The position numbers and the translations under genes were made by a program. From Bacteroidaceae bacterium (GTDB lineage Bacteria > Bacteroidota > Bacteroidia > Bacteroidales > Bacteroidaceae), in NCBI GenBank assembly GCA_017615245.1, contig JAGAAL010000041.1, positions 1 to 50,390 of the forward strand: DNA of 50,390 nt, written 5' to 3'. This document shows positions 10,903-50,390 of the stretch, in pieces (within the stretch, counting starts at the first letter, position 1; every line of letters starts with the position of its first letter). The notes under the pieces are model-generated. The model was not told the origin of the DNA. It did no database searches and was given only the letters and a program-made list of their open reading frames with translations.

Positions 10903-10984
10903 AATAAGAGTAATTTTAGATTAATAAAAAAATTGCCTATTTTTAGGGCGTATAAGCGCCGAAATGTTAAAATCCGAATGGCAT

Positions 10985-11193
10985 CCCACGGGGGTGGAGA
11001 CCCTCCCGACGGTGTCGGGAAGCTTTCCCACGGGGGTGGAGACCCTCTCGCATTGTCGGGAAGCTTTCCCACGGGGGTGAAGACCTTCTCCGCATTGTCA
11101 GGAAGCTTTCCCACGGGGGTGAAAACCCTCTCCGCATTGTCAGGAAGCTTTCCCACGGGGGTGAAAACCCTCCCGACGGTGTCGGGAAGGTTT
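10985..11193 (+). repeat. Tandem array: five units of 42 bp (one of 41)
   Basis: Units start at 10985, 11027, 11068, 11110 and 11152, each beginning CCCACGGGGGTG and ending GGGAAGCTTT, CAGGAAGCTTT or GGGAAGGTTT. Units 1 and 5 contain the inverted repeat CCCGACGGTGTCGGG; the middle units carry GCATTGTC instead. The array is direct, without spacers of unique sequence. It lies in the 331-bp gap between two minus-strand genes, upstream of the DUF6261-like gene, and is followed by a run of 10 G at 11197-11206. Confidence 0.93.
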
Positions 11194-11233
11194 CATGGGG
11201 GGGGGGCTGGCTTATTTCACCATCACCTTCTTG

Positions 11234-12882: not shown

Positions 12883-12909
12883 AAAAAAAGCGGGGGCTTA
12901 CACCCCCGC
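12883..12909 (-). terminator. Terminator of the beta-propeller gene
   Basis: On the minus strand GCGGGGG, loop and CCCCCGC (12890-12909), followed by T7 (12883-12889). Lies 120 nt after the stop codon at 13033. Confidence 0.82.
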
Positions 12910-12940
12910 CTGTAATATTCCGCCCCGTCGGGGCTTTCAT

Positions 12941-23805: not shown

Positions 23806-23837
23806 CAAAATTACTAAATAATTTTGACACCACCAAA
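23806..23837 (-). promoter_or_regulatory. lepA promoter
   Basis: Minus strand TTTG (23834-23837), 20 bp, TAATTTTG (23806-23813), ending 26 nt before the lepA start codon. Confidence 0.8.
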
Positions 23838-24133: not shown

Positions 24134-24250
24134 TACTCTAAACTCTACACACTCAACTCTACACTTTTATAACTTCTCTACACTCTTTCAACTACTATCA
24201 ACTATGAACTATCAACTATGAACTAATTCCTATACACCTCTTGCTCGACA

Positions 24251-24373
24251 CACATGTGAGACACCTTTTCGCATGTCCCTTAGTCTTGTTTCAGTCCAGA
24301 GGTAAACTTGACTTAGTCTTGAATTGCCCCTTAGGTTTTCCGCCCCCTCAAAAGCACTACAAAGGTACGAAAT
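24251..24373 (-). repeat. 123-bp structured element, copy 1
   Basis: Aligns with 50151-50273 without a single gap. Near-identical ends: CGCCCCCTCAAAAGCACTAC plus AAAGGTACGAAAT at the right, ACACCTTT..GCATGT at the left. The middle (24280-24323) is four 11-bp units related to TTAGTCTTGAA. Near the left end is a hairpin (24258-24279). Read on the minus strand it starts at a promoter (24360-24390), so it may be transcribed as a small RNA. Confidence 0.85.
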
Positions 24374-24390
24374 AATTCCGACATAACCAA
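24360..24390 (-). promoter_or_regulatory. Promoter of the 123-bp element (copy 1)
   Basis: Minus strand TTG (24388-24390), exactly 20 bp, then TACCTTTG (24360-24367). Directs transcription into the element, away from the palindrome. Confidence 0.6.
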
Positions 24391-24526: not shown

Positions 24527-24646
24527 ATTACAAATATTACATATTACATGCAACTCCACTTAATATCAAAAATTTATATATAATATCTATTATATATAAA
24601 TTCTATTATTTTACTCCAACCCGATGTAATATGTAATTTTTGTAAT
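24527..24646. repeat. 120-bp nested palindrome
   Basis: Outer arms of 23 bp (24527-24549 and 24624-24646) match at 22 of 23 positions. Inner arms of 15 bp (24571-24585 and 24588-24602) match perfectly. Both arm pairs share the same centre, between 24586 and 24587. The two unpaired segments between inner and outer arms are both 21 bp. The outer arm contains ATTACATATTACAT. Very AT-rich. Confidence 0.9.
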
Positions 24647-39596: not shown

Positions 39597-39628
39597 TGTC
39601 CTATAAGTCCAATAAGAACTATATGAAT

Positions 39629-39838
39629 CCGTCCGACTGCTCGGACAGCGATTCCGGCTTCTACTTTTCTCCGTCCGACTGCTCGGACAGCGATTCCGGC
39701 TTCTACTTTTCTCCGTCCGACTGCTCGGACAGCAATTCCGGCATTACTTTTTCGCTGTCCGACTGCTCGGACAGCAATTCTGGCATTACTTTTGCTCCGT
39801 CCGACTGCTCGGACAGCAATTCCGACATCTCGTTCTCA
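39629..39838. repeat. Tandem array: five units of 42 bp
   Basis: Units start at 39629, 39671, 39713, 39755 and 39797. Each starts (C/T)CGTCCGACTGCTCGG or nearly so and contains the inverted repeat GTCCGA-CTGC-TCGGAC. Units 1 and 2 are identical, and the later ones differ in the second half (GGCATTAC or GACATCTC in place of GGCTTCTAC). It lies between the terminator of the phosphatase gene and the stop codon of the next, convergent gene (39850). Because 42 is a multiple of 3, a reading frame of SPSDCSDSDSG-type repeats stays open, but there is no sign that it is a gene. Confidence 0.93.
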
Positions 39839-46984: not shown

Positions 46985-49966
46985 CTATTCATTCACCAAG
47001 AACTGCCCGTATTTCGTAATTCCTTCAGCTGACACATCGATTATGTTGCATACGGAGTTGTTGTAGAACTCGATGGAGGCCTGACCGAAGTTGTCTGTCG
47101 TGACGTTCGGATTCCAGTAGAGAGTGCGACGATAGTCCTTTATCTCTGGAAGTTTGGCTTTGCTGTAATCGGGATTATAGTACTCTACAGGCTTGGTGAA
47201 ACCTTGGAAATTGTACTCACGACCCACGGTGATGCGTGTCTTGTCGTCAGGGAAGGCGATGAGGTTGATGTAAGACTCTACGCCTCCACTTAGTGCCTTT
47301 GTCAGTCTTTCTCTCATTGACTTTGGCATTTCGTCTGCTCCTGCCGGAGGAATGACTCCTCCCTCTACTCCTCTATCTTGATGATAGTGCTCAAATGGAG
47401 TGGGTCGTCGAGGAGCATCACTCACAATCCAGATTCTATCAAGTATCGGCAGGTGTTCAATCGTGGTGATACGACCATTGAAGTCATTTATATTCCAGTT
47501 GATGCCAAACACCTGGGCTTCCTGATTATTCGCCGTATTCTCATATCTCAGTTTCACGTAATCCATGATAAGATAGAGATAGCTGACATCCTTGAATGCG
47601 TTATATTCTCCTTCTTCTCCAGCAACCTCTATGTAGTCTCTCCAATCAAAATAAAAAGTCTTGCCATCCATTAGCTGAATCTGCGGATAGTGGCCCTGAT
47701 CCCACAGTTCGTTCAGGAATTCCATGAAATCAATCTGCGCTACGGGCTTGTCTTTCTGCAGCTTTGCATGAGGACGTTTCTTGGACTTGATGTTCACCTG
47801 CGGAATCCATTCCGAGGCATAGATGTCCTCCTGATAGTCCTCCCAAGTGAGTTTCTTGTCTTTGACGATATCGGGCTGATAGGTTTCGTACCAGCTGTAT
47901 GCCTTGAGCGACTGTGGGTAGAACGTCTGTTTCCTTACAAATATCTTCGGGTCATGGCCCTGAACACTATCCGTTTTCACTTTATCCCCCTTGGCATATT
48001 GTGCCCTCAATGCCAGCTTTACATTCCCATAGAAAGGCTCGTAGGCTATCTGGAAATGACCTGCCGTATCTGCTTCCACGACTCCGTTAAACAGGTAGGT
48101 GTCGCCTTCCTTCAAATCATCGTTCAGGTTGAGCATCGAACAGGCGATGCGGATAGGCCGTTTCTCTTTTTTGAATAACTCCGTCAATGAAGTTCTGAGC
48201 GGAAGCGCATCACCATAGATGACCATCTTCTGTTCGGGAAGATAATCAAGCTGGAAATACTCAGGATAGTCGATGTATCGCCAGTCATAGCGTCGCCAAC
48301 CCTGCACCAGCATCAGCACATCGAGTGCCTGGCGGTGTTTCTCGTCATCTGCCTCGAAGTAATAGTCGGGATTCTCCACAAAGCCTTTCAGGTCGGATTC
48401 CAGCAGCAAGTTGGTCATGATGTTGCCTGTAGCAAACGACGGGTCGAGTTGGGCTTCGTCACGTACTGAGACAGAAAAGGTCTGGAACTTCAATGCATGT
48501 CCTTTTGCATCAGTAGCAAGCAGGTTCAGCTTTATCTTCTCCAAGGGTTGATAGGGACGGTTCGCTATGCCTGCCACCATCACCTTGGCTTTCGATTCAT
48601 AGGTTTTGTTGACAAAGAACAGACGGTCGGCATATACATTGCCCAAGGAATCTGTCACTACGACCTGATTCACACCTTCATCCAAGTCTTCAAGGGGGAT
48701 GGCAACCCCTCTCTTATCTCCCCCAAGGGGAGAAGATATTGTCCTTTTACCTCTGCAATAAATGTTCAAGGTCAGGCTCCGAGGCAGTCGGAACGTTTGT
48801 GCCACATCTATATACACTCCTTCCTCGTCCTGCTCCAACCAAAGACGTACACCCTCACGCTCTGCATCAGGCAGGTCGAAGGTGAATTTCTTGTCGGCAA
48901 ACTCAAAACGCACCTTGTACTTCTTGCCATGAAGCGGGGTCAGGACAAACATGCCTCTTCCTGCATGAATCGGACGAACGGAATCAATCGGCTCGCCGTC
49001 CTCGAGCAGTACGCCACTTACATTGAGACGTTCCAGCTGTTGGTTCATCGCTTCCCAAGCCACACGGCATTGCTGACCTTCCAGCATGTAGCCGCCTTCG
49101 GGGTAGAACCTGACATCGAACGCTGGTGTTTTCCAATCCACGCGATAGTCGCCCGCTGTAATCTTGGTCGGCATGATTTTCTGCATGTAATTGGATGCCG
49201 TATCAGGACAGCTATAGACAGGCAGGACGCGCGAAAACAGGTAATGATAGTCACGATACCTCTTCTGCATCCCATGAGGATCGAGCGAAATACCCAATTT
49301 GTGTTCGTCGTCCTCGGCTTGCAATATCTGGTGTGTAGCAGCCAGTCGGTCTTTCAATGGTTGCTCTGAAAGATGAAGGGTGTGATAGCCGCTCGCTTTG
49401 ATAATATCTGCATACTTCACATTGTCGGTATGATTCATTAGCCAGTCAGACAATGCATCGGCATAATCTCCACTGTACTGACTACCATTGATGCTCTTCG
49501 CCCCCCAACCATAATCCACACTTGATCTAAGGTCATACCAGGGTTTCACATAATCATACCCGAAATTCAGCATCCATTTCGTATAGGCACGCACTTCATA
49601 GAAACCGGCAAAGGTGGTATCGCAGATAGCAAAACACCCATCAGCCTGCCCCAATTTGTTGATTTCCAGTTGCTGACGCTCCATCAGGTAGCCCTGCTCG
49701 TTCAGCAGCTCCACATACAGAATACGGCTCAGCGGTTCAGGGCTGTTATCGTCTGCAAGTACCACGTATGCCTTGTACCAGATGGTATCACCCAGAAAGT
49801 AGCAATTGTTGTCGAAGTGCAGGTACACCTTTTCCTGTACTGGCAACACGCTCTTCGGCTTGTTGTCAGGTACGGATTCGACAAGCTCACTGTGTACGGA
49901 AGCAAAGGCGACTGCTGTCAGCAACCAACCAATTATTCCGAATAATAATAAGTACTTTTTTCCCAT
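46985..49966 (-). CDS. MG2-domain (alpha-2-macroglobulin-like) outer-envelope protein
   Basis: A 993-residue exported protein: signal peptide MGKKYLLLFGIIGWLLTAVA. Near the N-terminus, EKVYLHFDNNCYFLGDTIWY is the MG2-type domain opening seen in Bacteroidetes alpha-2-macroglobulin-like proteins. More beta-sandwich domains follow (FDVRFYPEGGYMLEG, VNQVVVTDSLGNVYADRLFF, KFQTFSVSVRDEAQLDP). No thioester CxEQ motif is present, so it is not a trapping macroglobulin. The C-terminal part (RTLYWNPNVTTDNFGQASIE) is like the last domain of that family. Residues 411-424 (ISSPLGGDKRGVAI) look like an in-frame palindromic repeat. The role in the envelope is unknown. Confidence 0.8.
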   Translation of the reverse strand: MGKKYLLLFGIIGWLLTAVAFASVHSELVESVPDNKPKSVLPVQEKVYLHFDNNCYFLGDTIWYKAYVVLADDNSPEPLSRILYVELLNEQGYLMERQQLEINKLGQADGCFAICDTTFAGFYEVRAYTKWMLNFGYDYVKPWYDLRSSVDYGWGAKSINGSQYSGDYADALSDWLMNHTDNVKYADIIKASGYHTLHLSEQPLKDRLAATHQILQAEDDEHKLGISLDPHGMQKRYRDYHYLFSRVLPVYSCPDTASNYMQKIMPTKITAGDYRVDWKTPAFDVRFYPEGGYMLEGQQCRVAWEAMNQQLERLNVSGVLLEDGEPIDSVRPIHAGRGMFVLTPLHGKKYKVRFEFADKKFTFDLPDAEREGVRLWLEQDEEGVYIDVAQTFRLPRSLTLNIYCRGKRTISSPLGGDKRGVAIPLEDLDEGVNQVVVTDSLGNVYADRLFFVNKTYESKAKVMVAGIANRPYQPLEKIKLNLLATDAKGHALKFQTFSVSVRDEAQLDPSFATGNIMTNLLLESDLKGFVENPDYYFEADDEKHRQALDVLMLVQGWRRYDWRYIDYPEYFQLDYLPEQKMVIYGDALPLRTSLTELFKKEKRPIRIACSMLNLNDDLKEGDTYLFNGVVEADTAGHFQIAYEPFYGNVKLALRAQYAKGDKVKTDSVQGHDPKIFVRKQTFYPQSLKAYSWYETYQPDIVKDKKLTWEDYQEDIYASEWIPQVNIKSKKRPHAKLQKDKPVAQIDFMEFLNELWDQGHYPQIQLMDGKTFYFDWRDYIEVAGEEGEYNAFKDVSYLYLIMDYVKLRYENTANNQEAQVFGINWNINDFNGRITTIEHLPILDRIWIVSDAPRRPTPFEHYHQDRGVEGGVIPPAGADEMPKSMRERLTKALSGGVESYINLIAFPDDKTRITVGREYNFQGFTKPVEYYNPDYSKAKLPEIKDYRRTLYWNPNVTTDNFGQASIEFYNNSVCNIIDVSAEGITKYGQFLVNE
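48695..48736 (-). repeat. Palindromic repeat inside the MG2-protein coding sequence
   Basis: On the coding strand CTTCTCCCCTTGGGGGAGAT is a hairpin (CTCCCC-TT-GGGGGAG-type) followed by AGAGAGGGGTTGCCATCCCC. This is the style of the intergenic C/G-block repeats, kept in frame. Confidence 0.6.
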
Positions 49967-50019: not shown

Positions 50020-50049
50020 CAAAGATACACTTTTTTTCACAGAAACCAA
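50020..50049 (-). promoter_or_regulatory. Promoter of the MG2-protein gene
   Basis: Minus strand TTG (50047-50049), 19 bp, TATCTTTG (50020-50027). A purine-rich GAGGAGGAACG follows 10 nt before the start codon at 49966, a rather good ribosome site for this group. Confidence 0.82.
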
Positions 50050-50150
50050 AATAACCTTCACTTTTTGCCATAAGGTAAATACTGCTATTGAGATTTAAAA
50101 GCGACCTGTCACTATGACCGGAGCGAAGCAGGGGTACTTCTGGCTAAGCA

Positions 50151-50273
50151 CATATGTGAAACACCTTTCCGCATGTTTCTTAACCTTTCTTTAACCCAGT
50201 ATTAACCCTGAATTAACCCTGAATTGCTCCTTCGGTTTTTCGCCCCCTCAAAAGCACTACAAAGGTACGAAAT
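50151..50273 (-). repeat. 123-bp structured element, copy 2
   Basis: Ungapped match to 24251-24373 (offset exactly 25900). Here the internal part (50180-50223) is four 11-bp units of the type TTAACCCTGAA, more uniform than in copy 1. The hairpin is GAAACA/TGTTTC (50158-50179). A -7 box TACCTTTG (minus, 50260-50267) is kept, but without a -33 TTG. Confidence 0.85.
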
Positions 50274-50390
50274 ACTTTTGTAAAAAACATATATTTTTTG
50301 AAAATAAACGTGTGACATTGTGACATGTGACATTAATAATTTCTATTTTGCAAACTCGACTTTACAACCAATATAAATAATTCAATACTA

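Follow-up and report, generated by a model that had tools for sequence, protein, structure and literature searches.

MITEs and mobile promoters are short, dispersed, mostly non-coding sequences that carry promoters. Leaders bound by TRAP contain repeated triplets with a period of about 5 nt, which form equal short sites for an oligomeric protein. Among the multicopy small RNAs FopS and GibS of Bacteroides, FopS are reported to be represented in Rfam and to end in a Rho-independent terminator hairpin (PMC11697453). The element analyzed here is likewise short, dispersed, mostly non-coding and promoter-bearing, but differs from MITEs in being continuous with a gene in some of its copies. It shares with FopS and GibS the organization as paralogous multicopy RNA genes, the Bacteroidota promoters and a conserved 5′ part, whereas it lacks an Rfam match and a terminator and has a gene behind it (PMC11697453). 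The element was not assigned to these small RNAs, because no Rfam match and no terminator hairpin were found at the unit. The mechanism proposed below resembles that of TRAP leaders in that equal short leader sites would be read by an oligomeric protein, although the period is 11 nt here and the binder only a candidate.

Within the window (the whole stretch of DNA that was analyzed, 50,390 nt), a sequence-only reading had described a 123-bp element that occurs twice. Positions 24251–24373 and 50151–50273 indeed aligned without a gap, and a genome search paired 24236–24377 with 50136–50277 (142 nt each, 79% identity, E 6e-29). The match is therefore real, but the likeness extends past the 123 bp, and the count of two holds for the window whereas the assembly contains eight copies. 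The middle part, which had been called loosely similar, turned out to be a tandem array of 11-nt units in exact register. On the minus strand the unit consists of a promoter, a 5′ block, three or four 11-nt units and a hairpin, in this order. The promoter of copy 1 reads TTG-N20-TACCTTTG; both the −7 box proposed for the minus strand of the two copies (24360–24367 and 50260–50267) and the TTG at 20 nt from it in copy 1 were confirmed, the latter by a promoter-pattern scan, which found no TTG-N17-21-TAnnTTTG at the element in copy 2. The 5′ block, beginning with TGTAGTGCTTTTGAGGGGGCGAAAAACC, can be folded into a hairpin, P1. The features are as follows:

24236..24377, minus strand: first copy of the promoter-leader unit, aligned to copy 2 without gaps (E 6e-29)
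24388..24390, minus strand: TTG of the −33 element of copy 1, with a 20-nt spacer to the −7 box
24360..24367, minus strand: −7 box TACCTTTG of copy 1; predicted transcript start near 24353
24325..24356, minus strand: 5′ hairpin P1 of copy 1, arms 24350–24356 and 24325–24331, predicted by folding
24280..24323, minus strand: four-unit 11-nt array of copy 1 (lag 11 best, at only 13/22)
24258..24279, minus strand: form-A hairpin of copy 1 (alignment and covariation count)
24571..24602, no strand assigned: perfect AT-rich palindrome upstream of copy 1 (palindrome scan)
23806..23836, minus strand: consensus promoter belonging to lepA itself, downstream of copy 1 (promoter-pattern scan)
50136..50277, minus strand: second copy of the promoter-leader unit, aligned to copy 1 without gaps
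50260..50267, minus strand: −7 box TACCTTTG of copy 2 (promoter-pattern scan)
50180..50223, minus strand: four-unit 11-nt array of copy 2 (lag 11 at 20/22)
50158..50179, minus strand: form-A hairpin of copy 2 (alignment and covariation count)
50045..50121, minus strand: remainder of the leader and DUF6266-like stub of about nine codons, copy 2 (79 nt aligned at 85% with the C58 copy by blastn)
50020..50049, minus strand: own consensus promoter of the gene at 46985–49966, downstream of copy 2 (promoter-pattern scan)

Elsewhere in the window, two tandem arrays with a period of about 42 bp and about five copies each (10984–11194 and 39628–39828) consist of GC-rich, inverted-repeat-like units, and positions 12890–12935 match the Acido-Lenti-1 RNA of Rfam barely above the cut-off (38.7 versus 37 bits).

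The eight copies in the assembly, which is 62% complete, are distributed over the window's contig C23 (two copies) and contigs C56, C25, C55, C58, C18 and C61 (one each). Across 16 other genomes of the genus, with at most 150 first-look candidates scored in each, the sister genome G006 yielded a single strong copy at E 2.9e-15 together with a weak hit, G011 gave just a weak hit (E 0.0099), and the other 14 gave no hit; at this depth, strong copies were confined to the own genome and one of the 16 others. The absence of further copies, which the sequence-only reading would have taken as a sign of chance or of a dead repeat, was thus not observed. Lag 11 was the best lag in all nine strong copies (from 13/22 in window copy 1 to 20/22 in window copy 2, with only 13–14/22 in window copy 1, C18 and G006), and each contains the 11-nt tandem array in sense orientation. 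No general 11-nt periodicity was seen in the window and seven own stretches, where the only two lag-11 clusters were both the element. A second leader family, faintly like the element and built of TGTTTACCTCT units, precedes homologues of the protein P0002 described below in G011 C12, G006 C2 and partly G006 C1; no such homologue was seen behind the leader of this type in G003 C17. In genome G004, a two-copy leader (L048 and L057) opens like the element, with T(G/A)TAGTGCTTTTGA or a near match to it, and differs from the element in the remainder.

The leader is continuous with a DUF6266-like start codon in four of the nine copies. Only in C58 does it run into an intact gene, which encodes P0002 (402 aa). 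The first 52 codons of P0002 remain in C25, as part of an ORF with a CHU_C domain at its end, and stubs of about nine and of seven to eight codons remain in window copy 2 and C56, respectively. The other copies are orphans with no gene of that kind behind them. P0002 had no Pfam match and did not reach the cut-off of DUF6266 (PF19781), which Pfam describes as a protein family of unknown function, while four of the eight P0002 relatives scanned passed that cut-off and L199 fell slightly below it; hence the name “DUF6266-like”. The genes behind the arrays described below are members or relatives of DUF6266, from which P0002 and its nearest relatives differ in being longer (about 400 aa) and in having a C-terminal region common to other proteins. 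The last ~100 residues of P0002 also occur in proteins with other N-terminal types, some of which appear by eye to be HU-type DNA-binding-like; such loci include L188 (own C56:52448-52768) and L198–L209 in G011, several of them at contig ends. A model built from the relatives detected DUF6266-type genes in 50 of 393 Bacteroidales genomes. No paper naming DUF6266 was found in a literature search that covered mainly open-access journal papers, and a search of the same scope for the repeats, leaders and array unit gave nothing relevant. We regard the identity of the element as promoter and 5′ leader of a DUF6266-like gene as highly probable.

The continuity with a start codon bears directly on the earlier suggestion of a conserved small RNA. 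A free-standing small RNA family would account for the element's own promoter, the two predicted hairpins and some covariation. However, four copies run on into the start codon of a gene, no terminator-like site lies by the end of the unit, and none of the 4227 Rfam families matched at the gathering cut-off in the element in the window, at 20 array loci or at L316, L039 and L041. Copy 1 had no terminator-like site on either strand; the sole site at copy 2 (50007–49995, minus strand) is over 140 nt beyond the element and adjoins the following gene. The suggestion is thus unsupported as far as a free transcript is concerned, and we regard such a family as very improbable. Laxer Rfam scans gave two sub-threshold hits, which look like chance and were discarded.

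The hairpin that had been described as covarying is the 3′ one, with the stems GGGACA/TGTCTC in copy 1 and GAAACA/TGTTTC in copy 2. This form A is found in both window copies, C56, C25 and C55, whereas the other three own copies (C58, C18, C61) and the G006 copy have a different hairpin, form B. In the five form-A copies all 35 of 35 cells pair, and two of the seven pairs show changes on both sides. Their covariation score was reached by 9 of 500 shuffles; the number of double-change pairs was reached by 73 of 500, so that five sequences are a small sample. The covariation of form A is weakly supported as genuine, and small. It does not extend to the 5′ hairpin P1, in which 98.4% of cells are paired across the nine copies with no double change. 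Only part of the copies gave single-sequence folds of higher stability than their shuffles (z = −3.1 in window copy 2, −3.2 in C58 and −2.6 in C61, versus −0.4 in window copy 1 and −0.2 in C56). A short reading frame was noticed by eye in form A (MRKGVSHVCRARG...); it is not kept in form B.

The sequence-only reading had also considered a structured mobile unit. This comes close: the element is present in multiple copies, has its promoter in eight of nine (C61 is the exception) and lies before unrelated genes such as lepA, a serpin gene and prfA. Copies could have been retained as mobile promoters because they drive the next genes. In line with this, all eight own copies point in the same direction as the next gene, and the only TTG-N17-21-TAnnTTTG upstream of the C18 serpin gene, the C56 gene and the G006 gene is that of the element. 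Against it, a full consensus promoter intervenes between element and start at lepA (window copy 1), the gene after window copy 2, the C55 gene and prfA (C61), and the C61 copy has no element promoter. With respect to the terminal inverted repeats and target duplication of MITEs, the upstream ends are cut by contig ends in four own copies and no empty site was found at lepA. In two relatives the lepA start was not located; in the 10 where it could be read, nothing there matched the element and upstream synteny was not kept, so that an empty site was not demonstrable. Retention as a mobile promoter appears quite improbable to us. Each window copy is followed by a consensus promoter that belongs to the next gene itself; for this reason the window copies are probably relics, and they are likely to be inert. 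Two lepA upstreams from other genomes (L399 in G015 and L400 in G016) contain tandem arrays of quite different units, with a period by eye of about 22 nt (twice 11), before a gene other than DUF6266.

The upstream regions of P0002 relatives contain 11-nt arrays with varying unit sequence. Scoring lag 11 at ≥17/22 within 400 nt as positive and windows further upstream as controls, we found lag-11 repeats upstream of 29 of 60 Bacteroidales DUF6266 loci versus 3 of 111 control windows. This set of 61 loci (27 + 30 + 4 extra, one skipped for its short upstream) was assembled with no motif filter, and eight of the 60 (L190, L191, L195, L199 and L273–L276) are the genes that prompted the test. At the same loci lag 22 gave 19 positives and every other lag at most three. 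A hold-out sample, comprising 40 (not all) of the matches for which no locus had been fetched, with one skipped, contained arrays at 11 of 39 loci versus 6 of 195 control windows, with five further loci at 16. An earlier count on genes picked by motif, which for that reason missed loci, array-poor ones among them, had given 26 of 52 versus 3 of 76 control genes, 3 of 416 random windows and 0 of 52 in each of 20 sets of shuffled upstreams. Other short-period repeats also occurred in the controls: lag 7 was seen in 5 of 111 windows and 8 of 76 control genes, and six of 195 windows showed lag 9. After merging of alike upstreams, 24 of 64 clusters were positive; this count and those of unit and strand below rest on the motif-chosen set and the hold-out. 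About half of the DUF6266 genes have no array at the threshold, and the Bacteroides-like genes L261, L262, L263, L278 and L282 were negative. Array lengths range from three to 11 units (11 in L191). The 1.57 Mb examined contained 31 strong lag-11 arrays, of which 19 lie within 420 nt before a DUF6266 start, five in leaders of the element or the second family (L239, L241, L243, L244, L249) and seven elsewhere. One lag-11 array (L034 2180–2229; own C6:46181-46230) has units like those of the DUF6266 leader on own contig C8 and adjoins a gene other than DUF6266.

Rotating 47 arrays to one register gave the consensus unit AYCAASTCCRT, with 6.2 bits of information versus 3.4–3.9 in shuffled units. 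The array is strand-locked, as CAAGTC occurred 47 times in sense and three times in antisense among 93 upstreams. The pattern AYCAAGNCCRTAYCAAGNCC had 13 matches at 10 places in nine of the 393 Bacteroidales genomes, and the backward control pattern had none in the same genomes. At eight of the 10 places a DUF6266 ORF follows after 38–92 nt in the same orientation; the two others (G626 C35 and G556 C25) lie before other genes. Since the pattern was derived from DUF6266 upstreams, this search tests specificity and not completeness. Of 31 array loci, 14 have a TAnnTTTG no more than 120 nt upstream of the array and eight have one between array and start, so in the latter the array may lie outside the main transcript. 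In L403, L406 and L410 it follows the apparent end of the previous gene (by eye) and would therefore be transcribed there. The arrays showed no common RNA fold in single-sequence predictions, where regular pairing with an inverted array was seen only in L272.

These observations raise the question of whether the array acts as RNA or as DNA. As DNA, it could be a row of operators or iterons spaced by about one helical turn, at which a DNA-binding protein would control the promoter, or it could serve replication initiation or recombination in a small mobile element that includes DUF6266. The eight loci with TAnnTTTG between array and start agree with this, as do nearly loopless AT-rich inverted repeats 110–241 bp upstream in six of 13 leaders, with perfect arms in window copy 1, C25 and G006 C5 and a few mismatches in G006 C2, G006 C1 and G011 C12. 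Such palindromes are limited to window copy 1 and C25 within the window and seven own stretches. In five of the seven palindrome-less leaders the contig end comes first (129–196 bp upstream in window copy 2, C55, C58 and C18; 149 bp in G003 C17); at C56 and C61 no palindrome was found upstream. Gene neighborhoods in part also agree: DUF6266 lies beside an SSB gene in L320 and beside sub-threshold Rep_trans matches in L320 and L321, and an integrase-like ORF was seen by eye in L325 and L327. However, no replication gene is visible around most of the DUF6266 loci inspected, sites kept at exactly 11 nt for as many as 11 units (L191) would move out of phase with a helix of 10.5 bp per turn, and the strand lock of 47 to three also speaks against this role. 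A transcribed row of sites is favored because of the strand lock and the strict period of 11, while a role as DNA keeps some weight because the order of promoter and array is mixed and palindromes occur. We consider the DNA role unlikely on balance, and action of the array in cis at the RNA level a tentative proposal.

The DUF6266 gene stands alone in own C8, in tandem in L317 and L318, and before an Amidase_2 gene in L319. In the viral contigs L324 and L325 it precedes holin-, endolysin- and lipoprotein-like genes (by eye). Some of its contigs are short (L320, 5.0 kb; L321, 11.6 kb; L325, 4.3 kb), and such contigs with SSB/Rep_trans or holin/lysin/integrase-like ORFs possibly represent a small mobile element. 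Searches of viral contigs with P0002, A4 or one canonical protein gave no match; a narrow alignment gave three loci and an array pattern one contig. Phages and plasmids, searched with one canonical protein only, gave no match.

Altogether, we lean toward the explanation that the promoter and leader of a DUF6266-like gene have been copied around the genome, mostly becoming separated from the gene, and, more tentatively, that the array tunes the DUF6266 message as a row of sites at the RNA level. The array, which would usually be transcribed, may present equal candidate sites to an oligomeric sequence-specific RNA-binding protein, for which DUF6266 itself or a host RRM protein would be candidates, and its binding would tune translation or stability of the DUF6266 message. 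A bolder version, which we regard as improbable, is that DUF6266 proteins are polymerizing nucleic-acid-binding proteins that coat their own leader with one protomer per 11 nt, either to regulate themselves or as the signal by which a small mobile element is recognized; the orphan arrays, the window's among them, would then be gene-less units that are still recognized or moved in trans. Under the explanation we lean toward, a set of dispersed repeats in this genome, several of them at contig ends, is accounted for as stray leaders of one gene. The strand-locked array of 11-nt units, present upstream of roughly half of the genes surveyed, offers a first handle on the function of DUF6266, because the array can be cloned and its binder searched for.
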